From positions 186,001 through 250,000 of the forward strand of contig JALBUN010000003.1 of NCBI GenBank assembly GCA_025174535.1: 64,000 bases of DNA. Reading direction: 5' to 3'. The position numbers and the translations under genes were made by a program. Source of the stretch: Cantharellus purpuraceus. Taxonomy: Eukaryota > Basidiomycota > Agaricomycetes > Cantharellales > Hydnaceae. This document shows, piece by piece, positions 19,806 through 63,287 of this stretch. Below the pieces are notes generated by a model. It had not been told where the DNA came from and did no database searches. It was given only the letters and a program-made list of their open reading frames with translations. Each line of letters starts with the position of its first letter. The first letter of the stretch is position 1.

Positions 19806-20570
19806 CGCCTTCCCAAGTTTTCATTTCGGTATGTTACTCGGCTCGATGATGCTCTTCTCTACTCCTTTATGTCCGGCACGCGGTGTCACAAAATTGATCC
19901 AATCAAGATACAGCTAGGGGGCATCTAGCTAAAGCCATCGAGACCAGCTCTCGCGTTGCTCTTTGACCTCAGCAGAATATCGGAGTTGAAAACATTCAGT
20001 AGAAACAATTAGCTGTGAAAAAGGCAATGTGGCGCTAATAGCAAAAATACAAAGGCTGTACAAGGGGGCGTTTGGCCGTTGGCCCTTAACCGACGGCATA
20101 GCCTCTGGGATTTCCACGCACATCGGCAATCACATACCGGCGACTTACATCATCGACCATCACGATGGCAACTGCTTCCTTACCTAGGCTAGTGTGTGTA
20201 ACTCTAGGTTGCCGGATATAAACCTGGACGTAGTTAAACCCCTCTCCCCAAGAGAAATTTGAACGGGGGAAACAAGAACATCAGACACCTCCGTAGAGCT
20301 GTAATCCCCTCAGACTAGAACTCCTGGAAAAGCTGCTTGCCATACGAATCAGCGCCGACATGGGCAACGTCCATGGGTCCTTAAATACTTGCAGCACAGA
20401 TGTCAAGCCCGATCTCAGTGAGCGAGCAAAATTGAATACTAAAAAGATCATATTCACAATTGGGGTATTGAGATGGAAGCAATAGAAAGGATTACGTCGT
20501 GTCTAAGCGGGGTATATATCTGCTGCTACATATATGCGGGTTATCCGCTGCCACATGTATGCGGGCCATC

Positions 20571-28890: not shown

Positions 28891-29083
28891 ACCCACATGG
28901 AAAGGAAAAATCATGCGCGTGAGTCCCAATCCTAGTGAGCCAGGTCCTTCAGAATCAAATTTGAAAACATGTCATGTTCACGAGTACGGCACCGGAATCG
29001 AAAGTAATAAGTACATGCATAAGATTATATCAGGGTATACCAATACTCTACTGCCACATGTATCTACATGTGTGCGTGCTATC

Positions 29084-45460: not shown

Positions 45461-45852
45461 TCAATTGGATGAGTGAGATTGACTGTGTGTGAGGGCTACG
45501 CTGAATGATGAGGCCACAACAACAAGATACTCAATAAGTGAGAGCTGATAAGAGATAATGCCAGCTGGTACAGCGGATATCCTCAGAGATCACGCTGAGG
45601 AAACTGTGCTGCACCAGGCAAGTTCTTTATACTAGATGATGCAAGGAATAGGGGAACCAAGATAGGGGAACAATAGGGGAGAGATAGGAGAGCGCACCCT
45701 GACAGGCTGTGCTGATAGGGGCGATAAGAAAGGGACTAAAAATAGAAACTGAGTCATATGAACCCTGACATCACCCCTCTCTCAATGCATGTCATCTTGA
45801 TATGCACCATCGTCCTATCCATCTCAGCAGAGACATACCGCAAAGCACTCTA

Positions 45853-47268
45853 TGTTTTGGAACCCACAAAATTATGGTGTTAGGGCAAACTCTAAATCAC
45901 CACAATTCTGTGAATGAACAGCTGAGAAGAATATCAAATCCTACTGCAGCACAACTCCAGAAACGATTTAATGTTTGTACTTTGGTTACAATCGGTTGTA
46001 ATGGTCAATGCAGACAATACACAGGAAGGTAATACATTTCTTAGCAGTAGGGAATGAATAAGACTTCCAGAGTCTAGAGTTCACAGACACTTAGGGGTCC
46101 AGATATTCCAAAAAGAGGGGAATGCACTTAGAGGCTAGAGGAAGTAGGTGGATGAATCCAACCATCCAACCAGTGACACTCTGAAGTGGGTAACAGCAAT
46201 GCACGAAGTAGTCTAGCAACTGCTTCACATGAGTTCAAGATCCTAATGCTCTGCAAAGGCAGTACACACTAGTAACTTAAACAAGAGCACTAATGGCAGG
46301 ACTATCAACAGACAATCTCACCCTGTAGATTCGTAGTCATGCGAGGTAGATACTACACTCATGCCCAAAGCAGGACAATCACTACTTCGAGTGCAATCAA
46401 GTACAGTTACACAACTGTAAGCAACCCTTGAACTGGACAATCAACAGTTACTGAGATATAGAGGATGACACTGTATGTCACTCTAGTCACACTGATGTGC
46501 AAATGATGGGGTAGAAAATGGTTATTATTTTCAGAGGCAGAATGGGCTCCTTTTATATTGTATTTACAGGAGCTGACTAATACTACTGGAAACTTCTACC
46601 TATTAATAGATGGAAACTACTGGAAGCTAGTGGAATATGTGAGAAGGGGGTGGAAGTTTCCTAGCCAATGAGCTGCTTGGATTTGCTCTGACTCATGGCA
46701 TGAGTCATGGATGGAGTCATAGTATGAGTAATCACAGGAGTCATGGTATGAGTCATGGAAGGAGTCATAGCATGAGTCATGGCAGGAGTCATTGCATGAG
46801 TCACCATTACTCAAATAACTCAGTCAATACTTCATTTCCCAGGCTGATCAGCACAGCTATGGGTAGGCACAGCTTCTATTGAACTCTCCACTGAAAATGG
46901 AGTCAGGAGGTGCAGTGGTTGTGAAGATATTGAGCATTTACTGGCAGTGGTGACCAGATTGAGTTGGAGATAGAAATGAGTCATGTGATTGAAAATGAGT
47001 CAGTTGTCTGGGTGACTCTGGCTGACTTTGGGGCTGCTGACATCTGTGAAGGTTTGTGGGTCCATGTGGGTCCCAAAACTTTGCCCAGCAGAACAATAAG
47101 TTTGTAGACTCATTTCTGCATGGAAAATTCCCAAAAAAATATGAAAGAATAGAGAATATTTGAATGGCCCTGAATCAAGAGAAAGCAGCACATATATGCT
47201 GATATTTTGAGGCCATGAAGCAAAATTGTATAGTTTCAGGACTTTAAGGGAAAACCAGTTCCCATACA
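45853..47268 (-). mobile_element. Solo LTR of the 1.44-kb family, copy 3, diverged, TSD CTCTA
   Basis: Starts TGTTTTGGAACCC and ends CCCATACA on the plus strand, the reverse of copies 1 and 4. The five bases CTCTA stand on both sides (45,848-45,852 and 47,269-47,273), a perfect target duplication. The middle and right parts differ clearly from the other copies and contain a local minisatellite, so this is the oldest copy in the window. Confidence 0.88.
46690..46804. repeat. GAGTCATG-type minisatellite inside LTR copy 3
   Basis: About ten imperfect ~11-base units with the core GAGTCATGG/GAGTCATAG. It is absent from the other LTR copies, so it arose after insertion. Confidence 0.9.
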
Positions 47269-47438
47269 CTCTACAAGGTGCTCCCTCACTTTCTGCCAGA
47301 GTCAAGTCCATGAAGAGTCTTGACACTGGTTGTTCTCTTCCCTGAGATAAAGTGGGATGGTAAAATTGCCTTAAAGACTGCTCCTAGCACCATCTCTCCT
47401 GCCCTATAGGTGACCCTGCCTGCGAGCCCTTGGAACAT

Positions 47439-48878
47439 TGTATGGGAACCACCTTTTCCATATCAAATCCTATTTATGCAGCACCAATGTGCTATATTTT
47501 GCTTTTCCATTCCTAAATATCAGCATATATTTGGTGCTTGTACCTGGAATGGACTTATTCAAATATTCTCTAATTTTTCATATTTTTTCAGGAATATTCC
47601 ATGCAGAACTTGGCCCAGAATGATTTATTTCTGCTGTGCTACAGTTGTGGACCCATAGGCACCCACAAACCTTCACACCTGGCTCTCCCCCTTTGGACCA
47701 GGCATTTGGCCTGAATTCAAGCTCAGATGTCTCTGATCAATAAATATTCTCTAACTTGACAACCACAGCCTCTCAGGGCACTATTTTCCATGGAGATCAT
47801 CACCTGAGATGTGGCTATCCATGGCTGTCCAAACCAGTGCAGAAAACAGGGTGGACACCCTTCTTTTTGCCTGATCAGTGCCTAGTTCAGGGATCAGATC
47901 AGCTAATGGGTGATCAAATCAGGTGATTGCCTTGGAATATTCTACCCCTTTCCATAACATTCTAGCTGTTTCCCTCTATTATTAGATAGAACTTTCCAGA
48001 ACCATTATTCAGCTCCTGATCAGTGTTAGTCCAGTGATCAGATCCTGTGATTGGCTTGGAATATTCTACCCCTTTCTTCCACCTTCCACAACCTTCCACA
48101 ACCTTCCAGTAGCTTCCATCTATTAATAGGTAGAATATTCCAGAAGCATTAGTCAGCCCCTGTAAATACAATATATAAGGAGGCCATTCTGCCTCTAAAA
48201 GAATAACATATCATCATATTCTACCCATCTTCTGCACACCAGTGTGACTAGAGTGACATACAGTGTCATCCTCTATCTCAGTAACTGTTGATTACCAGTT
48301 CAAGGATCTTTTACAGTTGTGTAACTGTACTTGATTGCACTCAAAGTAGTGATATTCCTGCTTTGGGTGTGAGTGTAGTATCTGCCTCACGTGACTACAA
48401 ATCTACAGGGTGAGATTGTCTGTCAATAGTCCTGCCATTAGTGCTCTTGTTTAAGTTACTAGTGTGTACTGCCTTTGCAGAGCATTAGAAGCTTGAACTC
48501 ATGTGAAGCAGTTGCTAGACTACTTCACACATCGCTGTTACCCGCTTCTGAGTGCCACTGGTTGGACGGTTGGATTCATCCACCTACTTCCTTTAGCCTC
48601 TAAGTGCATTCCCCTCTTTTTGGGATATCTGGACCCCTAAGCGTCCGTGAACTCTAGACTCTGGAAGTCTTATTCATTTCTTGCTGCTAAGAAACGTATT
48701 ACCTTTCTGCGTATAGTCTGCATTGACCAATACAAAGGATTGTAACCAAAGTACAAACGTTAAATTGTTTCTGGAGTTGTGCTGCAGCAGGGTTTGATAT
48801 TCTTCTCAGCTGTTCATTCACGGAATTGTGGTGATTTAGAGTTTGCCCTAACACCATAATTTTGCGGGTTCCAAAACA
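47439..48878 (+). mobile_element. Solo LTR of the 1.44-kb family, copy 4, TSD AACAT
   Basis: Runs from TGTATGGGAACC to GGGTTCCAAAACA, 1,440 bases, flanked on both sides by AACAT (47,434-47,438 and 48,879-48,883). A TATA-like ATATATAAGG at about 48,170 marks the likely promoter. No retrotransposon coding sequence is attached, as expected after recombination between two LTRs. Confidence 0.92.
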
Positions 48879-49163
48879 AACATGTATGGTATATCGGAGC
48901 CATTGATGAATATGGGGTCCCCGATGTAGTATATTTGGCACCTTGAGGATGTGCCTTCACACCAAAGGTGGAATCAAGCTGGTGGGGGTGGGGATGGGAG
49001 GTTGTAATCCTCTATGGCATGTGCAGTATCCCTTGAATCAATGGTCCAGTTGGATGATGGGTGTCAAGAATTTATTCAAGTAATATTACAATCTATTGGA
49101 GCAAGAAGGGGGAGTTTTATGATAAGGAAAAGTTGTGAAAAGTTTGGGAATTTTTTTGATTAA
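48879..49163. other. Unassigned element-like sequence
   Basis: No coding sequence I can support. The stretch GCAAGAAGGGGGAGTTTTAT resembles a polypurine tract next to an LTR start, so this may be the 3' end of another retroelement. Confidence 0.3.
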
Positions 49164-49729
49164 GACGCTTATTCAGAAATACAACAAATACGTATGTACA
49201 ACCTATTTTCCTCAAATTTTATACAATACACTTCAATTCAAACTTATTTTCATATTTCAACATGATTCTCAAATTTTACACAATATACTAGATTAAAACA
49301 TATTTTGATATTTTGGCATAATTCTCAAAAATAATTCTTTTTTTCCTGATTTAGTGGTGGCAACTCTCTTGAGGGAACATCCAAATATCATTGATTCTTT
49401 CTTATACAATACTTGTAACATAATTTGAACTATCTTTAATCCCCACCTGGTATTTGTATATCTAAATACCCTATATAATACCAATTATATTCATATATAC
49501 ATTCCTATTATGTACATGTAAATGATTATGTTCATCTCAACCAAATGTCTTATCTTTAAAAGTTTATTAAAATATAGAATATATGTTTATATTTATGAAA
49601 ATTTCACACATCCGAAATCTTTTAAGATATCCAAATTGTAACTCCCTGGCTTTATGTATCATTGAAATTCTGATGTATATCTCATATACATCAGAATATT
49701 GTATACTGACATGATTCCGAACAAGCGTC
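49164..49729. mobile_element. 566-bp TIR element, single copy A, TSD TAA
   Basis: Begins GACGCTTATTCAGAA and ends TTCCGAACAAGCGTC, so the two ends are imperfect inverted repeats of about 15 bases. TAA stands on both sides (49,161-49,163 and 49,730-49,732). It is AT-rich, has no coding capacity and is nearly identical to the terminal repeats of the 7.46-kb element at 55,071, in inverted orientation relative to them. Confidence 0.88.
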
Positions 49730-50644: not shown

Positions 50645-52027
50645 TCCCTACTGTCCAATCAAAGAGGACTTGTTTGGGAGGTTCTGTAAAGTTTGCAAGG
50701 GGTCAGAAAGGAAGAGTTGCATAGGTGGCAGCTGAAATATGCCTTGGAGCTTCAGGATATACTTTCTAGCTCTGCTGGCATCCTTGGCTGGTATCCAAAG
50801 GTCATCAGCAGCTCCATAGCCCTTCCAATGCACCAAGTACTCCAGTTTTCCTCAGAAAACCCTGCTATCAAGGATTTTCTCAATTTCATATTCCTGGACT
50901 CCATCTTGAATGATAGGAGGTGGTGGGGGAAATGAATGGCGTTCAGGGATAGGATCCTCTTCATAGGGGCACAGGAGAATGACAGAGAATACTGGATGAG
51001 TGTGACCAAAGAGTGGAGGAAGTTGCAGACCATAGGCATTCCAAGAGGCCACCTTGTTAATCATGTAAGGCCCTAGCCACTTGTGATCTAGCTTCTTGGT
51101 TGGATGGGTTGTTGCAATATTTTGTGCATTGAGCCAGACCTTGTCACCAACCTTATACACTGGTGCTGCTTGACAATGGATATCATAGAATCATGCCATA
51201 TCATCTGCTGCCTTTTCCAGGGCTGAATGAGCCTCACTTGTGGCCATCTCCATGTGTTCAGTGAATTCCTCCAGTGCTTCAAGCTGTGTCTCTCGGGCTG
51301 GCTCTAACCCTAGCCTTGGGTGTTGACCTGTGTCGAGCATAAAGGGGGTTGATTGTGTGGAAGAGTGGATGTGGTTGTTGTATGTAAATTCAGCAAAAGC
51401 AACCCACTTGACCCAGTCATCTTGGTGCTGATTGACAAAGAGCCTCAGATACTGTTCAATCTCTTGGTTGACCCGTTCCATCTGACCATCGGATTGTGGG
51501 TGATATGCTGTGGATGCTGCAACCTTGATTCCCAAGAGCTTATTGAGCTCGCACATAAATTGGGAGATGAATTGGGTGCCACGGTCACTGATGACTTCTT
51601 CAGGGAGGCCATGGTGTTTCCACACATAGTCATGGAAGAGTTGTGCAATCCCTATGGAATTAATGTCAGAGGTGGTAGGGATCACATGTACTCATTTGGA
51701 GAGTTGGTCCACAACAACAAGAAGTGCATTGTAGCCATGGCCAGTAGGTAACTCCACAATTAAGTCAACAGATATCACTTGCCATCTTTGGTCTGGGGCA
51801 CGATTAGGTAGGAGTTTACCCATTGGAGCAGCTGAGAAGGTTTTGGTCTGATTGCAAAGATCACAGCCCTTTATGTACTTTGCAATATATCGTCCACCAG
51901 TAGCTGTGTGATACAAGCTCTGTTGTCCTCCAGTGACCAGGGTGACCTGTGATGCGAGTATCATGGTGTGCCCTTACAATATCATGGTGCAGTTTTGAGT
52001 CAAGGGGAACATACACCTTGCCATGAT
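50645..52027 (-). pseudogene. Chromovirus integrase and chromodomain (3' part of pol)
   Basis: The continuation of the minus-strand Ty3/gypsy pol. In order: the zinc-binding end with CDLCNQTK, the integrase core with VISVDLIVELP (first Asp), EVISDRGTQFISQF (second Asp) and a catalytic Glu in QMERVNQEIE, the GKDKVWL-like KVGDKVWLNAQNI domain, and a C-terminal chromodomain (EYEIEKILDSRVF, then KLEYLVHWKGYG and LWIPAKDA). A TGA replaces an expected CGA Arg codon at three points: before VHVIPTT (51,686), before FYDIH (51,191) and inside the chromodomain after DSRVF (50,850). The chromodomain places it among chromoviruses, whose integrases use it to read histone marks. The reading is interrupted at its N-terminal side by the solo LTR at 52,028. 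Confidence 0.92.
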
Positions 52028-53467
52028 TGTTTTGGAACCCGCAAAATTATGGTGTTAGGGCAAACTCTAAATCACCACAATTCCGTGAATGAACAGCTGA
52101 GAAGAATATCAAACCCTGCTGCAGCACAACTCCAGAAACAATTTAACGTTTGTACTTTGGTTACAATCCTTTGTATTGGTCAATGCAGACTATACGCAGA
52201 AAGGTAATACGTTTCTTAGCAGCAAGAAATGAATAAGACTTCCAGAGTCTAGAGTTCATGGACGCTTAGGGGTCCAGATATCCCAAAAAGAGGGGAATGC
52301 ACTTAGAGGCTAAAGGAAGTAGGTGGATGAATCCAACCGTCCAACCAGTGGCACTCAGAAGCGGGTAACAGCGATGTGTGAAGTAGTCTAGCAACTGCTT
52401 CACATGAGTTCAAGCTTCTAATGCTCTGCAAAGGCAGTACACACTAGTAACTTAAACAAGAGCACTAATGGCAGGACTATTGACAGACAATCTCACCCTG
52501 TAGATTTGTAGTCACGTGAGGCAGATACTACACTCACACCCAAAGCAGGAATATCACTACTTTGAGTGCAATCAAGTACAGTTACACAACTGTAAAAGAT
52601 CCTTGAACTGGTAATCAACAGTTACTGAGATAGAGGATGACACTGTATGTCACTCTAGTCACACTGGTGTGCAGAAGATGGGTAGAATATGATGATATGT
52701 TATTCTTTTAGAGGCAGAATGGCCTCCTTATATATTGTATTTACAGGGGCTGACTAATGCTTCTGGAATATTCTACCTATTAATAGATGGAAGCTACTGG
52801 AAGGTTGTGGAAGGTTGTGGAAGGTGGAAGAAAGGGGTAGAATATTCCAAGCCAATCACAGGATCTGATCACTGGACTAACACTGATCAGGAGCTGAATA
52901 ATGGTTCTGGAAAGTTCTATCTAATAATAGAGGGAAACAGCTAGAATGTTATGGAAAGGGGTAGAATATTCCAAGGCAATCACCTGATTTGATCACCCAT
53001 TAGCTGATCTGATCCCTGAACTAGGCACTGATCAGGCAAAAAGAAGGGTGTCCACCCTGTTTTCTGCACTGGTTTGGACAGCCATGGATAGCCACATCTC
53101 AGGTGATGATCTCCATGGAAAATAGTGCCCTGAGAGGCTGTGGTTGTCAAGTTAGAGAATATTTATTGATCAGAGACATCTGAGCTTGAATTCAGGCCAA
53201 ATGCCTGGTCCAAAGGGGGAGAGCCGGGTGTGAAGGTTTGTGGGTGCCTATGGGTCCACAACTGTAGCACAGCAGAAATAAATCATTCTGAGCTGAGTTC
53301 TGCATGGAATATTCCCAGAAAAATATGGAAAAATAGAGAATATTTGAATAAGTCCATTCCAGGTACAAGCATCAAATATATGCTGATATTTAGGAATGGA
53401 AAAGCAAAGTATAGCACATTGGTGCTGCATAAATGGAATTTGATAGGGAAAAGGTGGTTCCCATACA
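52028..53467 (-). mobile_element. Solo LTR of the 1.44-kb family, copy 5, TSD ATGAT, inside pol
   Basis: Exactly 1,440 bases, TGTTTTGGAACC to TCCCATACA on the plus strand, flanked by ATGAT (52,023-52,027 and 53,468-53,472). It is a near-identical reverse copy of copy 4. Removing it with one ATGAT joins the two parts of the chromovirus pol at the linker between RNase H and integrase (the reading passes from GLVLYH into HGKVYVPLDS). Confidence 0.94.
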
Positions 53468-55070
53468 ATGATAGAGAACAAGTCCATTCTCCTTGGTCCA
53501 TTCCTGTCCTCATAGGTTTCCAGAAGAACTGAGTTCCTTGAGAGCTTTCACAACCTTTTTGTCTCTGTTGTTGCAGTTCCACACATGATCCAGAAATATG
53601 TCCCCTTCTCCTGTGACCATTTGAGCTCCTGGTCCTGAATAGGTGGATGTTGCATTAATGTGAAACAGCTCAGGGCCAAGGAGAATCTGATTTTGATTAT
53701 CTTCCTCCCCCCGTTTATGATCTACATGTCATGAGAGGGCATCAGGTTTAGCTGAATGGCGTCCAGGATGATGGATCAGTTCAAAATCAAAGTGAGAGAG
53801 GTAGAGTGACCAGCGAGCTTGTTGGCGATTAAGGTTCTGAACTGTATGGAAATATGTGAGGTTTTGATGGTCATTGAGGATCTCAATCTTGTGTTTGGTT
53901 CCTTCCAGGATGCGGCACCATTCCTCTAATCCACATATGACAGAGAGCAATTCCTTATCATGGATGGCATAGTTGCGCTCTGCATCTGAAAGACTCTTGG
54001 ATACGAATCCTATGGGTCTCCATTTCCCATCATCACAGAGCTGAGATAGAACGGCACCTGTTGCATATGCTGAAGCATCTGTCTCAAGTTGGAATCGCTT
54101 GGTTTGATCAGGGAGGACAAGGATTGGAGTTGATGTGACAAGTTGCTTGAGTTCCTCAAAGGCTTCTTGTTCTGGGCCATTGGACATCCAGGACCATTGT
54201 GAATTTGCCTTTGTTAATAGGTTCAGGGGTTTTGCAATGTGTGAGAAGTCCTCAATGAAACAACAGTAGAAGTTGATGAAGCCCAGGAAGGATTTGACTT
54301 CAGTGACATTGCAGGGTGTAGGCCAGTCTTGAACTCCAGCTACCTTGACTGGATCCATAGCAACCTGCCCCTGTGAGAGAATAAGTCCAAGATAATCTAC
54401 CTTCTGTTGCATGAAGAGGCATTTCTCTGGTTTGAGGTATAAGTGGTTGACCTGAAGGATTTCAAGTATGGATTGCACAATCCTGTGGTGTTGTTCTAGG
54501 GATTCAGTGAAGATGAGAATGTCATCCATGAAAACCACCATGATGCCATCATCAATGAGCTCCTTGAAAATGTCATTTATCATAGTCTGGAAAGTTGCTG
54601 GGCTGTTTGTGAGACCAAAGAACATGACTAGGGGTTCATATAGGCCACAGTTGGTCTGAAAGGCTGCCTTCCACTCATCACCCTCTTTAATGCACACATT
54701 GTTATATCCCCATCAGATGTCAAGCTTGGTGAAGTACCTGGCATTGGCGGCAGCAATTTTGTTCATGATATTGGGTACCAGAGGTAGAGGATAGGCATTC
54801 TTAATTGTGATGTCATTCAGTTTGCAGTAGTCCTGCACAAACCAAAGGTTGCCATCCTTCTTCTTCACAAAGAAAACAGGGGATGCCATTGGTGACTTGG
54901 AAGGGTGTACACGGTGATTCCACAGGTTCTCTTCAAGGAAGGCATCTAACTCCTTCTGCTCATTTGGGGACATTGGATAGATCTTTGTGCTGAAAGGTTG
55001 GGCTCCTGGAGTGAGTTCAATGGCATGGTCCCATGGTTTCCGAGGTGGAAGCTGATCAAATGACTCCTTT
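53468..55070 (-). pseudogene. Chromovirus reverse transcriptase and RNase H (middle part of pol)
   Basis: Reading from the right: a segment with PRKPWDHAIELTPGAQPF, SPFASP-like SKSPMASPVFFVKKKDG, FVQDYCKLNDITIKNAYPLP, then after a TGA in place of CGA at about 54,711 (after FTKLDI) GDEWKAAFQTNCGLYEPLVM, the catalytic VFMDDILIFTE (the Y/F-x-D-D box at about 54,530), KCLFMQQKVDYLGLILSQ, the thumb, and RNase H with FQLETDASAYATGAVLSQ, NYAIHDKELLSVI and HHPGRHSAKPDALS. Another TGA replaces CGA right after DALS (53,729). It is otherwise collinear with Ty3/gypsy pol. It is cut on its 5' side by the 7.46-kb element and on its 3' side by LTR copy 5. Confidence 0.95.
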
Positions 55071-55635
55071 GACGCTTGTTTGGAATCATGTCAGTATACA
55101 ATATTCTGATGTATAGGAGATATACATCAGGATTTCAATGATACATAAAGCCAGGGAGTTACAATTTGGATATCTTAAAAGATTTCGGATGTGTGAAATT
55201 TTCATAAATATAAACATATATTCTATATTTTAATAAACTTTTAAAGATAAGACATTTGGTTGAGATGAACATAATCATTTACATGTACATAATAGGAATG
55301 TATATATGAATATAATTGGTATTATATAGGGTATTTAGATATACAAATACCAGGTGGGGATTAAAGATAGTTCAAATTATGTTACAAGTATTGTATAAGA
55401 AAGAATCAATGATATTTGGATGTTCCTTCAAGAGAGTTGCCACCACTAAATCAGGAAAAAAGAATTATTTTTGAGAATTATGCCAAAATATCAAAATATG
55501 TTTTAATCTAGTATATTGTGTAAAATTTGAGAATCATGTTGAAATATGAAAATAAGTTTGAATTGAAGTGTATTGTATAAAATTTGAGGAAAATAGGTTG
55601 TACATACGTATTTGTTGTATTTCTGAATAAGCGTC
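55071..55635. repeat. Left terminal repeat (B) of the 7.46-kb element
   Basis: 565 bases, GACGCTTGTTTGGAATC to TTTCTGAATAAGCGTC. It is in the same orientation as the right repeat C and differs from it at about five positions by my reading. A perfect stem, CTGATGTATA / TATACATCAG with loop GGAGA, lies at 55,106-55,130. Confidence 0.93.
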
Positions 55636-56175
55636 TTAGGAAAGTCTTGGAAACAAACACCTTTAATGCAGTGAAGCTATTTTTAAAACAAAGTAACTTA
55701 GTTAGGGCATAGTGGTAGATAATCTTGTTCTAACATAAGACTGTATGACTATCCCTCGTACTTTAGGGTGCAATACCATCAGATTTTCCATCCAAAGTGG
55801 TGGAAAATAATGATCCTGCTCCATACTAGTATATAACTCTGTTAATTTCTGTTCCAGAAGTGTGCCATCAGTACATCTGTATAAAGTCAGTGATTGGAAC
55901 CTTGATATTTATAAAGGAACTTACCTCAGAAACAAATCATGGAGGGATCCTATCCGAGATATATACCAATCATTAACTCTTCTATCAAACTCTATCTTGC
56001 ATTGAAGCATAAAAGAGAGCATCTTCATAATGCTTATAACATAAAAACATAATAATCATTTTATTAAGAAAGCAAGATGTATATATCTACTGCCTATACA
56101 AAATATCAAATGTTCAGAAAAAAATGATTTTCATATTTTTTCATTTCTGTTTTATAAGCAGAGAGGGATTTGAAA

Positions 56176-57225
56176 ATGCCACAAATCTTTGAAGATATAA
56201 AAGCAATCAAAGGCTGGATAAGTGACAATGATGCACTGATAAAAGCTATGGCAAGTCAAATGGAAGTAAAAGATGAATTAATATCTGATCTTATAAATGT
56301 CAAGTCTTGGATGAGTGAAAAGGATAGGCAGATCACTATACTTGAACAACAGGTTAATTCCCAGAGTCAGGAAATTCAGGTGCTTAAGAAACAGGTTGAG
56401 GAAAAAAATACAATTAGAACTACTTTGACAGACAGGAAAGAGAATTTAGATGAATGGATGAGTGAAATGAATGATATTGTATCAGGATTTGGAACAGATA
56501 TTCATAAACTTCAGAGACAGGTTAATAGGTGTGTTGCCACAATATCAGACCATGGAACAGATATTCATCAACAGGTCAATACACATAATGCAGAGAATCT
56601 TATATTGGACCATAGAACAGACATTAATAAACTTCAGAAACAGGTTAATAGATGTATTGCAACAATATCAGACATTGTGGAATGGAAATCTGAAGTGCAT
56701 GAGTGGATTGTAGAAACAGATGATACTGTAGTGGAACTTGGAACAGACATTAATAAACTTCAGAAACAGGGTGATAAATATAAAGCAATAATATCTGAGA
56801 TTGTTGACTGGAAATTTGATATGAATCACTGGGCTGGAAAACAAGAACAGGAGGTAACAAGGTTACAGGAAAATGGTACCAGAAAGGTGACATTTAAGAT
56901 AGTGAAAAGAGGTGTAGACTATATACTTATAGACTCAGATCAGTCTTGTAGACTAAATAGAATGGAATTATTCATAAATGGTGAGCCTAGAAAACTATCT
57001 ACAATATATACTAGGAAGAATGAAATGTCATCATATGGCGTAGATGGTAATAGGATTAATTTTCAAACATGGAAGCAAGGAATGACTCAAGGTTCAAGGC
57101 ATCAAGAAAAAGGTCTAATGAACGATCTCAAACTCCTAGTTCAAGGCATCAAGAAAAAAGGTCTAAGGAACGATCTGATTCAGACTCTGATCAATCTCAA
57201 ATTCCTAGTTCAAGAAAAGATGTAG
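56176..57225 (+). CDS. Coiled-coil repeat protein of the 7.46-kb element
   Basis: I start at the ATG at 56,176 (MPQIFEDIKAIKGW), giving about 349 residues. Almost the whole chain is heptad-like with I/L/V spacing and few prolines. A ~40-residue unit recurs about three times with the core GTDI(H/N)KLQ(R/K)Q and NRC(V/I)ATISD, starting near residues 100, 155 and 195. A conserved-looking C-terminal part (RKVTFKIVKRGVDYILIDSD) precedes an Arg/Ser-rich tail. The tail is encoded by a ~45-base tandem repeat, and a one-base difference in its A-run moves the frame: the neighbouring frame from about 57,070 (SSRHQEKRSKERSDSDSDQS) looks more natural, so the true C-terminus may lie there, near 57,287. I know no homologous family. 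It could be a DNA- or multimer-binding accessory factor. Confidence 0.6.
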   Translation: MPQIFEDIKAIKGWISDNDALIKAMASQMEVKDELISDLINVKSWMSEKDRQITILEQQVNSQSQEIQVLKKQVEEKNTIRTTLTDRKENLDEWMSEMNDIVSGFGTDIHKLQRQVNRCVATISDHGTDIHQQVNTHNAENLILDHRTDINKLQKQVNRCIATISDIVEWKSEVHEWIVETDDTVVELGTDINKLQKQGDKYKAIISEIVDWKFDMNHWAGKQEQEVTRLQENGTRKVTFKIVKRGVDYILIDSDQSCRLNRMELFINGEPRKLSTIYTRKNEMSSYGVDGNRINFQTWKQGMTQGSRHQEKGLMNDLKLLVQGIKKKGLRNDLIQTLINLKFLVQEKM

Positions 57226-57279
57226 AGGGAGAACCCAGTAATGTAAGCCTCCGAAGACATAGGATACAAGGCATTCCAT

Positions 57280-57550
57280 GCTTCTGACAAGGTCACCTTG
57301 GAGTGAATGGCTGTCCATGAGCACTCGGATCACATCATTAGACTGCTCAAGGACAACGATTCAATTATCTGGTACACCATGCCGCTGCAAAGTCTCACCT
57401 ACTGTCTGCTCAGTAAGTGCATCATTATCAACCCTCACAGCCAAAAGGCTGTCCTTTGATAATGTGATCAAACTGCTCCTGACAAGGTGACCTTCCATCC
57501 GATGTCATTATCATGATATGATAATATCCAATCGGCTGGTACACCTATTT
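57280..57550. repeat. Duplicated segment between element genes
   Basis: CTGACAAGGTCACCTT (57,283) and CTGACAAGGTGACCTT (57,479) differ by one base; the core AAGGT-S-ACCTT is palindromic apart from the centre. CTGGTACACC also occurs twice (57,370 and 57,537). It may be a small insertion within the element. No coding sequence is supported here or up to 57,828. Confidence 0.4.
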
Positions 57551-57828
57551 AGCTATGCAGCAAAGAATTTGGAATGAAAGACTGGCAAGATAGGAAACAA
57601 GGAACTGGTAGAAGAATGATAGATGAAAGGACAGGAAATTCTGTATGGGACTTTGTTGTAGTATTCAGAACGAGTGCATGCATCTGGCTATTGACAACTT
57701 TAGAAAATATATATAATTCAATTTATAAATATTAGATAAAAATATGGATGTTTACTACAACATTCTGTTCTTCAGAACTATCTAGTAAAAAATGAAATAA
57801 ATTTTATATATCCTTCTTTATTGACATC

Positions 57829-58599
57829 ATGGGTAAAGATAAGAAGTGCAATGATTGGAGTTCTCGTGATCTTTGGGATTATGGTATAATGGTTGACACA
57901 CAATGGACTAAACAGTTTTTTGAGACAGATTTTAGAGATATTACTTTAGATATTGATGATGAGATCCTCAGTTTTGATTACAAAAAAGATGATGTGAAAT
58001 GTTTAAAGGAGTCTTCAAGAAAATTTTTTACATACTTAGATAGATCTACTAGAGTCAGGGAAGGATCTACGTTGGTTAATGATTTTACCAGAGAAGTGCT
58101 CTTTCTCATGAAATATGACAAGGATGAAAGATTAATCATCACTCATAATAAAATCCCTATGAATGTGAGGGGAAATATAACAAGAAATGTTATAGAGATG
58201 TGTGTTATAAAAAATGATAATGAGATACTGTTTTTTACACATGAGAACACAAATCAGATAAATCCAGAACCGCAGATTATAGCAAGAGCTATAGCAGTTT
58301 TTCAATTGAATAACAAGATTAGGAAGAATAAGGGAAAAAGTGCTTTAGAGGAAATGACAATACCTTGCATTCAAACATCGAGAAAAGTCCCCCAGTTTTA
58401 CCTAGTAACTGTTACAAGAGAGCTTGATCATGCTATCACAGAAGGGTTGTTTTCAGAAGTGAAAACAAATGTAAGGTGTTGTTTTCCTGTAACAGTAACA
58501 GGTATGAAACATATTAATAGTAGAAAGAATGTTCTACAGTGTTTTGAAGCATTTAAGAAGTTTGTAGATATACTTGATAGGAAATTAGATGAGAAATAA
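57829..58599 (+). CDS. PD-(D/E)XK-like hypothetical protein of the 7.46-kb element
   Basis: 256 residues from an ATG at 57,829 (MGKDKKCNDWSSR). The second half has the layout of a hypothetical family found in many basidiomycete genomes: a beta strand with VIEMCVIKNDNEILFFTHEN, then PEPQIIARAIAVFQLNNKIR, then EEMTIPCIQTSRKVPQFYLV and TVTRELDHAITEGLF, and a C-terminal helix with GMKHINSRKNVLQCFEAFKK. From memory this family is fold-related to PD-(D/E)XK nucleases, where the last strand usually carries E-x-K; here that position reads HEN, so nuclease activity is doubtful. Structure prediction would settle this. Confidence 0.55.
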   Translation: MGKDKKCNDWSSRDLWDYGIMVDTQWTKQFFETDFRDITLDIDDEILSFDYKKDDVKCLKESSRKFFTYLDRSTRVREGSTLVNDFTREVLFLMKYDKDERLIITHNKIPMNVRGNITRNVIEMCVIKNDNEILFFTHENTNQINPEPQIIARAIAVFQLNNKIRKNKGKSALEEMTIPCIQTSRKVPQFYLVTVTRELDHAITEGLFSEVKTNVRCCFPVTVTGMKHINSRKNVLQCFEAFKKFVDILDRKLDEK

Positions 58600-58637
58600 T
58601 GAGTTTTTAAAATTAATATATAATAACCAGAGACACC

Positions 58638-58817
58638 ATGTTGAATATACCCGAGATTGGTGATAAGGTATCATTTATCAATGCAAGAACACAAATGACA
58701 GTGACAGGTATTGTTACATTAGTAACTGGCACTTTGTCAGATGACACTTTGCTAATAACTGTTACTTATGATGACAATGAGATTCAGCTACCACTACATG
58801 CACTACAACAAGTATAA
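58638..58817 (+). CDS. Small 59-residue beta-rich protein
   Basis: ATG at 58,638 (MLNIPEIGDKVSFIN), stop at 58,817. The pattern GDKVSFIN...VTGIVTLV...LLITVTYDDNEIQLPL resembles a small SH3/Tudor-like barrel. It follows the preceding gene by 38 bases on the same strand. No homologue is known to me. Confidence 0.45.
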   Translation: MLNIPEIGDKVSFINARTQMTVTGIVTLVTGTLSDDTLLITVTYDDNEIQLPLHALQQV

Positions 58818-58868
58818 GATAAATCAGATAAGTGAATATGCAATATTTTTATTCACTCAAATGAAGGC

Positions 58869-59093
58869 ATGTGTGGTGATAGTGAAAAAATTCAAATTAC
58901 TTGGAAGTGCAATCATATAACTACTACATCTGTAGTTACAGATTGTAAGGATATTAAATGTCCTAAGAGCTCTGAACATTCAAAAAATACTCATCATGAT
59001 ACTAATGGTACTTATTGTTGTGTGAACAAAAGTTCAAATCTTGAAATTATCCAAGTGAAAATAGATGAAAAATGTTGTGAGTGTAGAAACTAG
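58869..59093 (+). CDS. Cys/His-rich small protein, possible zinc binder
   Basis: 74 residues from 58,869 (MCGDSEKIQITWKCNH). It has about nine Cys and several His, in the order W-K-C-N-H, C-K-D-I-K-C, S-S-E-H-S, T-Y-C-C and E-K-C-C-E-C. The C-x-H ... C-x(3)-C-x-x-S-x-x-H order is like a small zinc-binding fold I have seen in fungal hypothetical proteins. It is too short for a firm family call. Confidence 0.45.
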   Translation: MCGDSEKIQITWKCNHITTTSVVTDCKDIKCPKSSEHSKNTHHDTNGTYCCVNKSSNLEIIQVKIDEKCCECRN

Positions 59094-59111
59094 GACTTTT
59101 AAATCAACTCC

Positions 59112-59762
59112 TTATGAGGATTCTTTGAACATCTGATTTCTTATACTTTGGAATATAATGTCAATAGCATTAGAACACTCTTCAAACTGAGCTTCTATGC
59201 TGTATCCAGAGGAAGGATATACAACAATTGAAACACCCTGATTGTTATTGGTGGTTTCATATAATTTTAACCTACCATCCTTAGTTATGATCATACCATA
59301 GATTGTGATTTTACTTTTCTTGAAAACTCTCTGCTGTTGTTTCAATGCAACAACCATTGATGTAACCAAATTGTTATACACATCACAGTTCTTACAAGTT
59401 TCCCCAGCAATAGAAATATCACACTTCTTGCCAGTTTCTCTAGCAATAGAAATATTACAACTAGGCAGATTATCCTGTTGCATGGTTTGCAGACTTGACA
59501 TACAATGATTTTGTTGAATCCAGGTTGAATTACTTATTTCATTGCCCTTTTCAATCATCTTATTGTACAGTGCTTCTGGTGTTTTATCTCTTTCCTGAGA
59601 AACCAATCCAGCTGGAAAGAAGTCCTTTGGGGGATTTCTTAATCTGAATTTTATGTAGATGGTGTCAGAGTCTATATACAAAGGATTTTCATCATCCTCT
59701 GGTTCTTTTTTAACAAAGACAGTAGATATTTTACGAACAACTTGCTTAGAGACAGACAACAT
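59112..59762 (-). CDS. Unidentified 216-residue protein on the opposite strand
   Basis: Start at 59,762 (MLSVSKQVVRKISTVF), stop at 59,112. It is the only minus-strand frame of the element, convergent with the preceding small gene (18 bases apart). Features are an acidic stretch KKEPEDDENPLYIDSDT, a Cys-bearing repeat (NISIARETGKKCDISIAGE), and a long amphipathic helix. No domain recognised. The start faces the charged small gene and the DDE gene, so about 100 bases at 59,763-59,858 would be a bidirectional promoter. Confidence 0.5.
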   Translation of the reverse strand: MLSVSKQVVRKISTVFVKKEPEDDENPLYIDSDTIYIKFRLRNPPKDFFPAGLVSQERDKTPEALYNKMIEKGNEISNSTWIQQNHCMSSLQTMQQDNLPSCNISIARETGKKCDISIAGETCKNCDVYNNLVTSMVVALKQQQRVFKKSKITIYGMIITKDGRLKLYETTNNNQGVSIVVYPSSGYSIEAQFEECSNAIDIIFQSIRNQMFKESS

Positions 59763-59858
59763 AGCTTCATAGAATAAATATTATTTAATTTAAAATTCAA
59801 TTATCAAAAAAATGAACATATTTTTGTTTTACTGTAATATAAGAGTATCTTAGTCAAA

Positions 59859-60059
59859 ATGCCCTCAGACCAGCAAAAACGCACAAAGGAGCAAAAAGAG
59901 AAAGAGCAAAAAGAGAAAGAAGAAAAAGAGCTTCAGCAACTTAAAATGTGGAATGATCAAAGGGACAGAGCATATAATAAGTTGATGGACAATCATTGGA
60001 ATTTTCTATACACAAAGTGGCCTGTCTTAGAACACAAAAATATCATAGAACAAAACTAA
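59859..60059 (+). CDS. Small charged protein or 5' exon of the DDE gene
   Basis: 66 residues from 59,859 (MPSDQQKRTKEQKEKE), a Lys/Glu-rich helix followed by NKLMDNHWNFLYTKWP. The next gene's frame begins at a likely intron acceptor (TTGTTTTCAG at about 60,141-60,150) without a good ATG, so this segment may be its first exon; I could not find a donor that keeps frame. Confidence 0.4.
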   Translation: MPSDQQKRTKEQKEKEQKEKEEKELQQLKMWNDQRDRAYNKLMDNHWNFLYTKWPVLEHKNIIEQN

Positions 60060-60135
60060 AAGATATGAATGACATGGATGATGTAAAAAAGTAGTATATA
60101 ACAAGCTTGGACCAATACCAGTATTTTTCTTTCTT

Positions 60136-61333
60136 GTGGTATTGTTTTCAGTTGAAGAACATTCTACACCTTATAGAGAGATAGAAAAAGGCTTGTTAGT
60201 ACTATATCATCTACTCAAAGGTCCTACTTATGAAGAAATAGGAAATTTCATGCCATCAAGTAGCTTTTATGATGTTCATAAGGAATTTTATGGTCGTCTG
60301 CATCATCTTAACTTTGATCTAGATAAACAAGTTACTGATTCACTGCGTACAATGTTCTCAAATATAATAATAAGGATATTATCAGCTCTTATAAAGAATC
60401 CTCCAAAAATGGAATCAGTGACATTACTTCTTGATGGTCATGATACAAGAGGAATTTTGATTGGATCGACATCTGAAGAGGGGTACTCACATAAATTTAA
60501 AAAGGCAGGATTTCGTACTCAAGTATGCATTGACATTAATCAAATGGTTCTATTCACCTCACCTTCATTGGCATGTAAACTAAATCCTGATGCAAAAATG
60601 TTTGTAGAGATGGCTGTATGGAATAAAATAGATAAGAATGATCAGATAGACTTTGATGGAGCTTATCCATCTGCTATTCCAGAAGTAGTAAAGGCAAGTA
60701 TATTAAAGCCTAAGAACTTCTTTTATCCTTTTCGGAAGCCAAAAAATGTTGAACTTAAACCTGAAGAAAAGATTTTTAATAAGAAGTTTGGTGCCTTTCG
60801 TTCAACAGTAGAAGCATTCTTTGGAGGGCCTGCAATATTGTTTGAAAAATTTGATAATAAGAGATCTATTAGAACTACAAATCCTGCTGTCTTTAATCTG
60901 GAATTAAAGGTAGCATGTCTATTATGGAATATTAAGAAATTTGTAGAACTACGTAAGATCAAACCATCCCCTTATCATGAAAAATGGTGTGAACAATATT
61001 TTGATTACCCTGAGGAAGAGGACCCAGATATTGAGCCACCCAGATCATTACTGGAAAGAGCAGAAGATGTTGACAAGATGACTCTATCTCAACAACGACT
61101 ATTAGAAAGATGTGAGTATGATGTGGAGATGCATTATGAGACTGAAAATGAAGTAGAACAAATAATAAGGCAAAGAAAAAGGAAAGTACGTAGAATATTT
61201 AGTTAAATGGAAATGTTATGCAGAGAAAACTTGGGAAGCAACATCAAGCTTTAAATCTACAGAATGTATTAAAGAGTATTGGAAAGACAATAGTAATAGT
61301 ATTATTGTATACCTATGCTACATTCAACTGTAA
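60136..61333 (+). CDS. DDE_Tnp_4/Harbinger-like nuclease with C-terminal chromodomain (one-base frameshift)
   Basis: The presumed transposase. The open frame from 60,136 has no ATG and probably starts at the acceptor near 60,150. Counting from 60,136: an N-terminal helical part with TYEEIGNFM; LLLDGHDTRG with Asp100; GYSHKFKKAGFRTQVCIDIN; QIDFDGAYPS with Asp174; FNKKFGAFRSTVEAFFGGP with Glu226. This D-D-E order and the Y-S-H-K ... F-N-K-x-F-G-A-x-R-x-x-V-E-x-F-F-G pattern are those of DDE_Tnp_4 nucleases. After an acidic linker the frame reaches NEVEQIIRQRK and stops at 61,203. Skipping one base in the A5 run at 61,176-61,180 continues as GKYVEYLVKWKCYAEKTWE and IKEYWK, a clear chromodomain, to a stop at 61,333. 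The cause may be mutation, a sequencing error or frameshifting. Confidence 0.78.
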
Positions 61334-61389
61334 ATTTTTTTTCCCAGAATAAAATTGAATATTTGTATGTTTTATACTTATAGGTATCT

Positions 61390-61887
61390 ATGGAGACTGA
61401 TCCATTACTGAAACAGCGTCTCAATCAACAGTTTTACCAAAAGCCTTTTCACAGCAATCCACACCGGCTAGCTAATTGTACAACGTGTGACTGGTACCCC
61501 TTTGGGCAGTATCTGGACCGTTCATATGCTGAAGGTGAAGTGTTCCAGCTTTCAAAGTATCCTCATATCAAATATGTATTTCTTGGTCTACAACCTGATA
61601 AAATAGGCTATAATGAAAGTGATCCTATTTTTGTAGCAGAATTTGTAGGTTTTCTGAATAAAACCAACAGATTTGTAAGTGGTTCTGATCCAACCTCTGG
61701 ATATGCACACATTATAACCACACATGTGAATCAGGCGTTTGTTAGACAGCCAGGCCCAGATATAAATAGGCAGAAACTATATCTTGGCCGTACAGTGCAC
61801 ATGATCTACATAACTAGTATTCTTATACTATTGGCTTTGCTGTGTTGGACAGTGTCCAGACATACCAATGAAGATAAGAATTCATAA
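61390..61887 (+). CDS. Tail-anchored hypothetical protein of the 7.46-kb element
   Basis: 165 residues from 61,390 (METDPLLKQRLNQQFY). A globular part (C-TTCDWYPFGQYLDRSYA, FVAEFVGFLNKTNRF, AHIITTHVNQAFV) precedes one membrane segment near the C-terminus (MIYITSILILLALLCW) and a short polar tail ending HTNEDKNS. No signal peptide, so it fits the tail-anchored pattern. Unknown family. A membrane protein is unexpected in a DNA transposon. Confidence 0.5.
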   Translation: METDPLLKQRLNQQFYQKPFHSNPHRLANCTTCDWYPFGQYLDRSYAEGEVFQLSKYPHIKYVFLGLQPDKIGYNESDPIFVAEFVGFLNKTNRFVSGSDPTSGYAHIITTHVNQAFVRQPGPDINRQKLYLGRTVHMIYITSILILLALLCWTVSRHTNEDKNS

Positions 61888-61966
61888 TGGCATGTCTAAA
61901 TCTATGGAGAAAGAAGCTTGTTGATGATATAAGGTGATGATTTTTGTTTTTAAAATGACCTCCCTA

Positions 61967-62532
61967 GACGCTTGTTCGGAATCATGTCAGTATACAATAT
62001 TCTGATGTATAGGAGATATACATCAGGATTTCAATGATACATAAAGCCAGGGAGTTACAATTTGGATATCTTAAAAAGATTTGGATGTGTGAAATTTTCA
62101 TAAATATAAACATATATTCTATATTTTAATAAACTTTTAAAGATAAGACATTTGGTTGAGATGAACATAATCATTTACATGTACATAATAGGAATGTATA
62201 TATGAATATAATTGGTATTATACAGGGTATTTAGATATACAAATACCAGGTGGGGATTAAAGATAGTTCAAATTATGTTACAAGTATTGTATAAGAAAGA
62301 ATCAATGATATTTGGATGTTCCTTCAAGAGAGTTGCCACCACTAAATCAGGAAAAAAAGAATTATTTTTGAGAATTATGCCAAAATATCAAAATATGTTT
62401 TAATCTAGTATATTGTGTAAAATTTGAGAATCATGTTGAAATATGAAAATAAGTTTGAATTGAAGTGTATTGTATAAAATTTGAGGAAAATAGGTTGTAC
62501 ATACGTATTTGTTGTATTTCTGAATAAGCGTC
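61967..62532. repeat. Right terminal repeat (C) of the 7.46-kb element
   Basis: 566 bases in the same orientation as B: GACGCTTGTTCGGAATC to TTTCTGAATAAGCGTC. By eye it differs from B at position 11, in the ATCTTAAAA(A)GATTT(C)GG stretch, at TATATAGGG/TATACAGGG and in one A-run. Confidence 0.93.
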
Positions 62533-62722
62533 TTTGAGAAAACATCCTTAAATCCCCAATATGCCTTTGGGATGATATCTTCAAGAAGTTTGACAGGAGC
62601 AGATTCTGCAGCCTTCTGTGCAAGCTGTTGTGAGACTGTTGAGCCTGCACAGATCTTCTCCAAGTCTTCTTCCACAAAGATGACAAAGGTTCGGTCTCCC
62701 TCCTTGAGTAGGGGTTGCCTAT
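62533..62722 (-). pseudogene. Chromovirus pol segment between two insertions
   Basis: Minus-strand reading QPLLKEGDRTFVIFVEEDLE through VSQQLAQKAAESAP to FKDVFSK, the linker between protease and reverse transcriptase in Ty3/gypsy pol. It joins the protease segment at 63,288 once element D is removed (NPHR with QPLLK) and the RT segment once the 7.46-kb element is removed. Confidence 0.9.
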
Positions 62723-63287
62723 GACGCTTGTTCAGAAATACAACAAATACGTATGTACAACCTATTTTCCTCAAATTTTATACAATACACTTCAATTCAA
62801 ACTTATTTTCATATTTCAACATGATTCTCAAATTTTACACAATATACTAGATTAAAACATATTTTGATATTTTGGTATAATTCTCAAAAATAATTCTTTT
62901 TTCCCCATTTAGTGGTGGCAACTCTCTTGAGGGAACATCCAAATATCATTGATTCTTTCTTATACAATACTTGTAACATAATTTGAACTATCTTTAATCC
63001 CCACCTGGTATTTGTATATCTAAATACCCTATATAATACCAATTATATTAATACATACATTCCTATTATATCCATGTAAATAATTATGTTCATCTCAACC
63101 AAATATCTTATCTTTTAAAGTTTATTAAAATATAGAATATATGTTTATATTTATGAAAATTTCACACATCCGAAATCTTTTAAGATATCCAAATTGTAAC
63201 TCCCTGGCTTTATGTATCATTGAAATCCTGATGTATATCTCCTATACATCAGAATATTGTATACTGACATGATTCCAAACAAGCGTC
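62723..63287. mobile_element. 565-bp TIR element, single copy D, TSD TAT
   Basis: Begins GACGCTTGTTCAGAA and ends TTCCAAACAAGCGTC, flanked by TAT on both sides (62,720-62,722 and 63,288-63,290). It is in the opposite orientation to B and C. It interrupts the same chromovirus pol only 187 bases from the 7.46-kb element. Confidence 0.9.

Follow-up and report, generated by a model that had tools for sequence, protein, structure and literature searches.

A DNA transposon family of the fungus Cantharellus purpuraceus with long terminal direct repeats that carry their own inverted ends

PIF/Harbinger elements produce 3-bp TAA/TTA-like duplications and encode a DDE_Tnp_4 transposase. Another plan, LTDR-INT-LTDR, is that of the KolobokP elements found in 7 animal phyla. 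According to the portions of Kojima and Bao 2022 (PMC9587614) covered here, an interior (INT) with a DDD/E transposase lies between LTDRs that measure about 450 or 660 bp and have short terminal inverted repeats (TIRs) of their own; INT mostly holds 2 genes, among them one for a His-Me finger nuclease. The same portions describe many solo LTDRs flanked by duplications, whose length is 3-4 or 4-5 bp depending on the family (TTAA for the Kolobok superfamily), tandem arrays in which LTDRs are shared, and a proposed circular translocatable-unit step, along a pathway that its authors call unknown (PMC9587614); no comparison between left and right LTDRs was found in them. Judged by titles and abstract openings, this was the only one among the papers listed to describe DNA transposons of the LTDR plan, subscription papers, preprints and Repbase reports being outside the scope of the search. 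For the IS26 family, the parts of PMC6952201 covered state that copy-in yields a second copy of both the IS and the target site, and that a lone IS, still with its duplication, is what remains when the direct copies recombine.

The window analysed here is a stretch of 64,000 nucleotides of C. purpuraceus (contig JALBUN010000003.1). It contains a unit of 7462 bp in which two long direct repeats (LDRs) surround a 6.3-kb INT (Table 1). An earlier note on this DNA had described direct repeats of about 566 bp, some 99% identical and with inverted ends, TTT on both outer sides, and about eight frames in between. All of this was recovered: the repeats measure 565 and 566 bp and are about 98-99% identical, 13 of the 15 terminal bases pair in the right one, both TTT are present, and about 7 to 8 frames were found. 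Each LDR has its own TIRs, the termini of the family being GACGC...GCGTC. When 90 bp of each flank were fused with one TTT, an open frame ...AYWGFKDVFSKESFDQLPPRKPWDHAIELTPGA... was obtained which continues the minus-strand frames of both sides. The proposal that removal of the unit restores a host pol frame thus holds as far as reading-through is concerned; the identity as a retroelement-like pol was recognised by eye, and over this short distance one more of the three frames is likewise open.

Table 1. Features of the unit and of neighbouring solo LDRs, in window positions
Feature	Position	Strand	Remarks
Left 3-bp target site duplication, TTT	55068..55070	.	
Whole unit	55071..62532		
Left LDR, own TIRs	55071..55635	+	
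Constant inner flank TTA, 3' of left LDR	55636..55638	+	TTA in 33/33 pairs
ORF1, 349 aa, coiled-coil-like	56176..57225	+	Pfam matches all below cut-offs, several to coiled-coil families
ORF2, 256 aa	57829..58599	+	
ORF3, 59 aa	58638..58817	+	Open in 20/20 copies
Small frame, 74 aa	58869..59093	+	
ORF4, 216 aa	59112..59762	-	Open in 20/20 copies, 204 aa in one
Transposase frame, N-terminal piece	59859..60059	+	
DDE_Tnp_4-type transposase	60250..61206	+	D, D, E conserved; severed from N-terminal piece in window copy
Chromodomain-like coding stretch	61181..61330	+	Other frame than transposase; Pfam Chromo 22.0 bits, below 25.1 cut-off
ORF7, 165 aa	61390..61887	+	Open in 20/20 copies; hydrophobic near C-terminus by eye
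Constant inner flank CTA, 5' of right LDR	61964..61966	+	
Right LDR, own TIRs	61967..62532	+	
Right 3-bp target site duplication, TTT	62533..62535	.	
Solo LDR	49164..49729	-	Matching duplication TTA on LDR strand
Solo LDR	62723..63287	-	Matching duplication ATA on LDR strand

No gene was seen in the LDR itself, and the transposase sits in INT. Its N-terminal piece and its remainder form one continuous frame in copies L013 and L020. Scores against DDE_Tnp_4 were 19.3 bits for the window copy and 17.7 bits for L020, both below the cut-off of 24.8, which two relatives exceed (P0001, 39.8 bits; P0020, 34.5 bits), and residues D193, D267 and E319 are invariant across 23 aligned sequences. From its sequence, we class the predicted transposase as PIF/Harbinger-like. 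At the chromodomain-like site, an A5 run is identical in 23 of 23 matches of the site pattern. ORF1 contains a 21-bp repeat tract whose length differs among copies. Part of the window ORF2 region (278 bp) is missing in all 19 other copies compared, 18 of which retain an 81-aa frame there, none being found in the remaining one. At the limits set, neither ORF2 nor ORF7 had relatives; a single solved-structure match of ORF2 (E 0.23) was taken as chance. As the earlier note had it, reverse transcriptase is absent, by Pfam in the five main ORFs. The scanned frames gave no match to a Myb/SANT-like second gene, nor any Pfam or NCBIfam match to a His-Me finger nuclease, short or fast-evolving forms of which could escape such a scan. 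Among viral_contigs, no relative was confirmed (12 pattern matches), and genome_contigs yielded one 3.7-kb contig with a transposase start at one end, too short to reveal flanking repeats; it is filed as a bacterial MAG and is probably of eukaryotic origin. Named relatives occur in the fungi Apophysomyces, Rhizomucor and Mortierella.

Patterns for the internal junctions matched 61 times on the left and 61 times on the right genome-wide, with 0 matches for reversed-pattern controls; the right-hand count includes at least 1 false match (C1:574401, merely the outer flank of L015). The genome holds about 60 copies of the LDR-INT-LDR element, and the family looks young. Beyond what the earlier note described, two solo LDRs lie near the unit (Table 1), and the LDR is a dispersed family, its 5'-end pattern matching 473 times, and since each internal junction matched only 61 times, most LDRs are solo. 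Tandem arrays are present on C38, C44 and C45; the right end of the one on C38 (L074) aligned poorly (45 differences over 449) and was set aside.

We examined 33 complete LDR pairs. One is a haplotig duplicate. The left-right comparison covered 32 units; these are not a random sample, the first 19 coming from the top of the transposase match list, nor are the 22 solos studied, most of which are best matches to the window left LDR. Omitted from the set were L014 (5'-truncated, without left LDR), L045/L046 and L067/L068 (left LDR not wholly within the stretch examined) and L071/L072 (no left LDR in the stretch). E61, a duplicate of L027 with identical flanks, was excluded from the counts, and E59, whose left LDR is an array-inner LDR, was kept among the 32 units and excluded from the duplication count. 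Of 31 units, 27 had matching outer 3-bp duplications, where shuffling predicts 6.0 and never exceeded 15 in 100,000 rounds, and 19 of 22 solos had a matching duplication (3.6 expected, maximum 11). The left-side target was TAA or TTA in 19 of 31 units. Because the inner junction bases TTA/CTA are constant in all 33 pairs and the outer flanks vary, we conclude that the unit moves by its outer ends; the inner TTA is possibly a relic of an old duplication made by LDR insertion. In the pairs examined, both LDRs have the same orientation, as a cointegrate requires. L012 and E47, considered as a same-site pair, were rejected as such: over 411 bases, the flanks on the left show 86% identity, short right-flank matches reach 94-95% and the LDRs differ at 14 sites, so that they are probably independent insertions. 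The check proposed at the outset asked for complete copies with 3-bp duplications at a number of unrelated locations, and such copies were found; recurrence, matching duplications and constant inner junctions together support movement of the unit as a whole. The alternative offered there, a composite formed by a pair of small TIR elements around a captured gene cluster, fails as a one-off account of the present element, as all 33 pairs share TTA/CTA, and is plausible as a past origin.

Within a unit, the left and right LDRs differed on average by 2.25 changes (median 1, largest 9, 32 units). Between units, the means were 11.87 for left-left, 11.59 for right-right and 11.73 for left-right comparisons, and none of 100,000 random re-pairings of LDRs reached 2.25 (minimum 7.78). 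If the two ends were simply inherited, one would expect separate left and right LDR classes; no such classes are formed in the 32 units, and in only 15 of them was the left LDR strictly closer to its own partner than to the LDRs of all other units. Substitution divergence among units was 1.84% for left and 1.90% for right LDRs, with 0.43% for the interior, and LDR and interior distances were uncorrelated (0.04). The interior is not uniformly low, the non-coding segment 57240-57790 diverging by 1.08% and the non-coding segment next to the left LDR by 0.40%. New one-sided LDR substitutions (0.00062 per site) were about as frequent as private interior ones (0.00067 per site) in 20 units, a count to which the window copy contributes 4 of 14 LDR and 20 of 78 interior changes; the two were weakly rank-correlated (rho 0.27, p 0.26). 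As these rates are close, the LDRs appear alike from birth rather than through continuing conversion. Over the 64 LDRs, the private one-sided rate was 0.00044 per site, below the 20-unit value. LDRs also exchange sequence with one another, after insertion or during it, since 56 of the 72 one-sided differences in the 32 units involve alleles found elsewhere, the other 16 being private.

On balance, we favour a composite-like DNA transposon whose intermediate has one repeat and is probably circular, with integration by copy-in in the manner of IS26. The LDR-INT-LDR unit itself is well documented; the circle is what we infer. The DDE_Tnp_4 transposase encoded in INT would act on the LDR inverted ends with a 3-bp duplication, TAA or TTA being preferred, a role suggested by its domain and by the duplication. 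Recombination between the two LDRs would leave a solo LDR and release a circle made up of INT and a single LDR. Repeats and interiors would then be reshuffled among copies, for which mosaic haplotypes are observed and the circle may be the venue; such reshuffling in the one-repeat form is an extra step, demanded by the uncoupling of LDR and interior. Finally, the transposase would treat the single LDR of the circle as a transposon and connect the two ends of this LDR with a new target (copy-in, cointegrate), so that INT becomes flanked by two LDRs in direct orientation and a 3-bp duplication arises. We propose this last step because the LDRs look alike at birth. Tandem arrays could result from unequal exchange or from a second circle entering a unit, and the solos and arrays present in the genome speak for the one-repeat cycle.

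Cut-and-paste of the whole unit by its outer ends, with LDRs kept alike by within-unit gene conversion or unequal exchange, would also fit the outer duplications. Nearby direct repeats undergo conversion, and the arrays and one-sided shared alleles show that LDRs are exchanged in place. Conversion within a unit would nevertheless have to outnumber exchange with the hundreds of other LDRs by about 5 to 1, judging from 2.25 against 11.7 differences, and the similar rates of new one-sided and private interior mutations in the 20 units give no clear sign of continuing erasure; we regard this scenario as unlikely, though worth keeping in mind. That the one-LDR circle with INT inserts into solo LDRs already in place, through homologous recombination or a targeted conservative reaction, and reuses the old duplication of the solo, strikes us as improbable. 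This is the pathway of Fig. 5b1 in the covered portions of the KolobokP paper (PMC9587614). It accounts for the uncoupling from the interior, and full-unit LDRs are indeed about as diverse as solos (solo-solo distance 10.69, solo-full 11.84), with 24 of the 38 alleles present in at least 2 units also occurring among the 22 solos. A crossover or conservative join, however, predicts left-right distances of about 11.7, against a median of 1 and a maximum of 9, so that crossover into solos is disfavoured, and variants shared by both LDRs extend to position 559 of 566 in L016, L021 and L022, which should be rare under long gap repair.

Reverse transcription, too, would be expected to produce matching left and right repeats, solos and mosaic repeats. 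A non-autonomous LTR retrotransposon using a reverse transcriptase in trans is nonetheless very improbable here: besides the lack of that enzyme in the five main ORFs by Pfam, the ends are GACGC...GCGTC and not TG...CA, the duplications are 3 bp and of TAA/TTA type, a DDE_Tnp_4 gene is present, and LDR diversity is about 4 times the interior mean, with 0.40% in the adjoining non-coding interior, a pattern not expected of copies made from a single RNA. Neither a pair of like repeats nor the presence of solos proves reverse transcription. As to an assembly artefact or a chance arrangement, the setting is repeat-rich and some small contigs repeat others, but each kind of junction recurs some 60 times, on many contigs, and the units examined have varied flanks with matching duplications; this leaves it practically no credit, and genome-wide recurrence rules out a chance or assembly join. 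Extending the favoured one-repeat, copy-in reading, we tentatively suggest, at somewhat less than even confidence, a eukaryotic copy-in transposon in which a 566-bp inverted-end transposon devoid of genes makes one selfish unit with a separate circle that bears the genes. Its single repeat would be replicated at integration and both end repeats renewed at each insertion without reverse transcription, with solos and repeat reshuffling through a shared pool arising by recombination.

Compared with known systems, the element resembles LTR retrotransposons in its long direct repeats, alike within a copy, its solos and its mosaics, and departs from them in its TIRs, its 3-bp duplication, its DDE_Tnp_4 gene and the absence of a reverse transcriptase from the five main ORFs. 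With PIF/Harbinger it shares a DDE_Tnp_4-type transposase with its DDE triad and the 3-bp TAA/TTA duplications; unlike them, it has direct repeats of 565/566 bp, not short TIRs alone, and no Myb/SANT partner in the scanned frames. As in the translocatable units and pseudo-composite transposons of IS26 (IS6), the direct repeats are themselves transposons, and a single repeat with its duplication is left behind. IS26 holds its own transposase within its repeat, whereas here it lies in the interior, and the duplication is of 3 bp instead of 8 bp. KolobokP is alike in its INT between two long direct repeats with their own TIRs, its solos with duplications and its tandem arrays, so that the "new type" of the earlier note stands as a DNA transposon with terminal direct repeats, on a plan already known from animals. 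It differs from the present element, which has a DDE_Tnp_4 transposase, 3-bp duplications, 7 to 8 frames with no nuclease match, and a fungal host; neither mark of the Kolobok superfamily, a Kolobok transposase with TTAA-type 4-bp duplication and, in the frames scanned, a His-Me finger nuclease, was found. In the literature searched, DNA transposons of the LTDR plan appear once, in animals and within one superfamily; their occurrence here in a fungus, under a different class of transposase, points to convergence. New with respect to KolobokP are the likeness of LDRs within a unit (2.25 against about 11.7), the absence of left and right classes and the lack of correlation between LDR and interior distances. 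With about 60 copies and hundreds of solos, this likeness and uncoupling make the one-repeat intermediate directly testable.

Two long direct repeats (LDRs), which start with GACGCTTGTT and end with AATAAGCGTC, enclose the 6.3-kb interior of the window's unit. An LDR has inverted ends of its own, 13 of 15 bases matching in the right one, and TTT stands on either side of the unit. By eye, the host site resembles a pol frame from a Ty3/gypsy-like element. When 90 bp of each flank were joined without the unit, an open frame continuous with the frames on either side was obtained, which agrees with the earlier claim that removal of the unit restores the host frame. Near the LDR 3′ end, here at 55470-55588 and also in other LDRs, are two subrepeats of ~62 bp, 81% alike, which are possibly transposase binding sites.

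LDRs and other repeats in the window
Feature	Position	Remark
Left LDR	55071-55635	direct repeat
Right LDR	61967-62532	direct repeat
Solo LDR	49164-49729	in window
Solo LDR	62723-63287	in window
Ty3/gypsy-like pol pieces	50752-54712	minus strand; by eye, frames resembling RT/RNase H and integrase; LDR insertions sit in it
1.45-kb repeat	1736-3174, 47436-48884, 52022-53470	three copies 96-99% alike, one inverted
1.45-kb repeat, partial copies	3173-4195, 45852-46669	
~0.9-kb direct repeat	20553-21458, 29066-29973	88% alike; further diverged matches nearby

The 40.15-Mb genome (50 contigs) was searched for both junctions between interior and LDR, with up to 2 mismatches. Each pattern gave 61 matches, and the reversed patterns gave 0 in the same search. 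Matches to the left junction were exact (56) or had one mismatch (5). For the right junction 48 were exact, 8 had one mismatch and 5 had two, one of the latter (C1:574401, on contig C1) being the outer flank of locus L015 and no junction. Since 61 matches were found per pattern, the genome holds about 60 interior copies. The LDR 5′ end (24-base pattern) had 473 matches, which puts the number of solo LDRs at roughly 350 or more, an estimate that misses diverged copies.

For comparison, 20 loci of ~9.9 kb were taken around transposase matches. Both LDRs were present in 19, locus L014 being truncated, and these 19 with the window form a set of 20 units. Thirteen further LDR pairs brought the total to 33. 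One pair is a haplotig duplicate, which leaves 32 measured units of about 60 in the genome. Of 31 testable units, 27 had equal outer 3-bp flanks (100,000 shuffles gave a mean of 6.0 and a maximum of 15), as had 19 of 22 solo LDRs (mean 3.6, maximum 11); the left flank was TAA or TTA in 19 of the 31 units. Exchange between units could have produced the four with unequal flanks (L010, L022, E53, E57). Inner flanks were invariant in all 33 pairs, with TTA 3′ of the left LDR and CTA 5′ of the right one. Constant inner flanks together with matching outer duplications indicate that the mobile ends are the outer ones, the interior being inherited along with its junctions. The TTA/CTA pair looks like the degenerate remnant of a duplication made when an LDR entered the interior long ago. 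Full copies with constant junctions and matching 3-bp duplications thus recur at other loci, as the earlier note had asked of a unit that moves as a whole, and the transposon family is real, recent-looking and multi-copy.

Tandem arrays were found at L068 (contig C38), L077 (C44) and L076 with L059 (C45). The array LDR, preceded by CCCTA and followed by TTAGGAAAG, is common to two interiors; on C44, left junctions lie at 3999, 11180 and 18357, and right junctions at 10608 and 17786. Nested insertions were also seen: a full unit within a solo LDR at L017 (C23:3500000-3509900, duplication TAT), and a solo LDR within an older LDR at L036. Contigs C37 and C1 (~3.85 Mb) share near-identical flanks; between C26 (~131 kb) and C15 (~74 kb) the 499-bp left flanks are identical, yet the LDRs differ at 4 sites each. 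Such likeness of flanks suggests that both pairs are haplotigs or recent duplications.

Left and right LDRs of a unit differ at a mean of 2.25 sites (median 1, 32 units), against 11.87 (left-left), 11.59 (right-right) and 11.73 (left-right) between units; none of 100,000 random re-pairings reached 2.25, the minimum being 7.78. Simple inheritance of each end predicts likeness among left ends, but these do not form a class. Instead, LDR haplotypes consist of shared variants in blocks that have been reshuffled; these blocks occur in both LDRs of a unit and extend as far as position 559 of 566 (20 units). Substitution divergence between the 20 units is 1.84% for left and 1.90% for right LDRs, roughly fourfold the interior value (0.43%); non-coding interior adjoining the left LDR stands at 0.40%, and the non-coding stretch 57240-57790 at 1.08%. 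Distances between LDRs do not correlate with those between interiors (r 0.04 overall, from -0.18 to 0.16 in the single regions). L018 and L019, whose LDRs are identical, show 14 differences in the interior, the mean being 20.8. The interior is mosaic too, with four or more combinations in 460 of 1081 site pairs.

New one-sided LDR substitutions (0.00062 per site) are close in rate to private interior substitutions (0.00067; 20 units), so the two LDRs seem to have been alike at insertion and to have drifted afterwards. Against this reading, the per-unit rank correlation of these changes was not significant (rho 0.27, p 0.26), and the partner LDR is strictly nearest among the units' LDRs in 15 of 32 units only. 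In addition, of the 72 one-sided differences counted in the 32 units, 56 involve alleles that also occur elsewhere, 16 being private, so exchange in place happens as well. Such exchange cannot by itself explain the pattern, since the link between the two LDRs would be expected to be lost as fast as that between LDR and interior. An intermediate that carries a single LDR accounts for these data most simply. Recombination of the two LDRs would yield a circle and a solo LDR; the transposase would then act on both ends of the circle's single LDR in a copy-in reaction, giving two like LDRs in direct orientation around the interior, with a target duplication. We infer the circle, the copy-in step, the place of reshuffling and this transposase as agent; the units, duplications, likeness, uncoupling, solos and arrays were observed. 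For the bacterial IS26 family, copy-in is described as duplicating IS and target, with recombination resolving the product to a single IS (PMC6952201).

L013 and L020 have a transposase frame of 449 aa, which in the window copy is broken into pieces of 66 aa and 318 aa; the longest frame per unit ranges from 110 to 449 aa (20 units). A search gave 58 relatives; PF13359 and PF00385 are present in many of them, and those named are from Apophysomyces, Rhizomucor, Mortierella, Actinomortierella and Thamnidium. D193, D267 and E319 (L020 numbering), invariant across 23 aligned sequences, are the putative catalytic residues, judging from the family. The chromodomain-like stretch lies out of frame, past an A5 run, in 23 of 23 site-pattern matches (61170-61190 in the window), and was therefore either lost or is reached via a frame change. 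Many of the relatives have a chromodomain within the same protein as the transposase. All 20 copies keep ORF3, ORF4 and ORF7 open (ORF4 with 204 aa in one), which is weak evidence because the copies are so alike; pN/pS, on few sites, was 0.38 for ORF1, 0.31 for ORF4, 1.11 for ORF7, 1.62 for ORF3 and 0.91 for the transposase part. A whole ORF2 (256 aa) was present in the window copy alone, 278 bp being missing in the other 19 units. Among 40 of 63 search candidates scored, 15 were full-length, 1 covered positions 1-756 and 24 were in two pieces without the middle; the shortened form being commoner, an element can probably do without ORF2 in cis. ORF1 contains a 21-bp tandem tract (window 57172 region; L020 2592-3374), the length of which differs widely from copy to copy; in a different frame it reads as a long SDSDSDQ repeat.

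With PIF/Harbinger elements, the Cantharellus family agrees in domain and duplication, but not in termini or partner gene. The plan of two direct repeats around an interior is identical to that described for the KolobokP transposons of animals (PMC9587614), which differ from the DDE_Tnp_4 type in transposase class and have a homing-type nuclease; their authors suggested a circular unit and described the pathway as unknown (PMC9587614). The Cantharellus family is outside KolobokP by its transposase, its duplication and the lack of a nuclease match in the frames scanned, and the plan is common to both.
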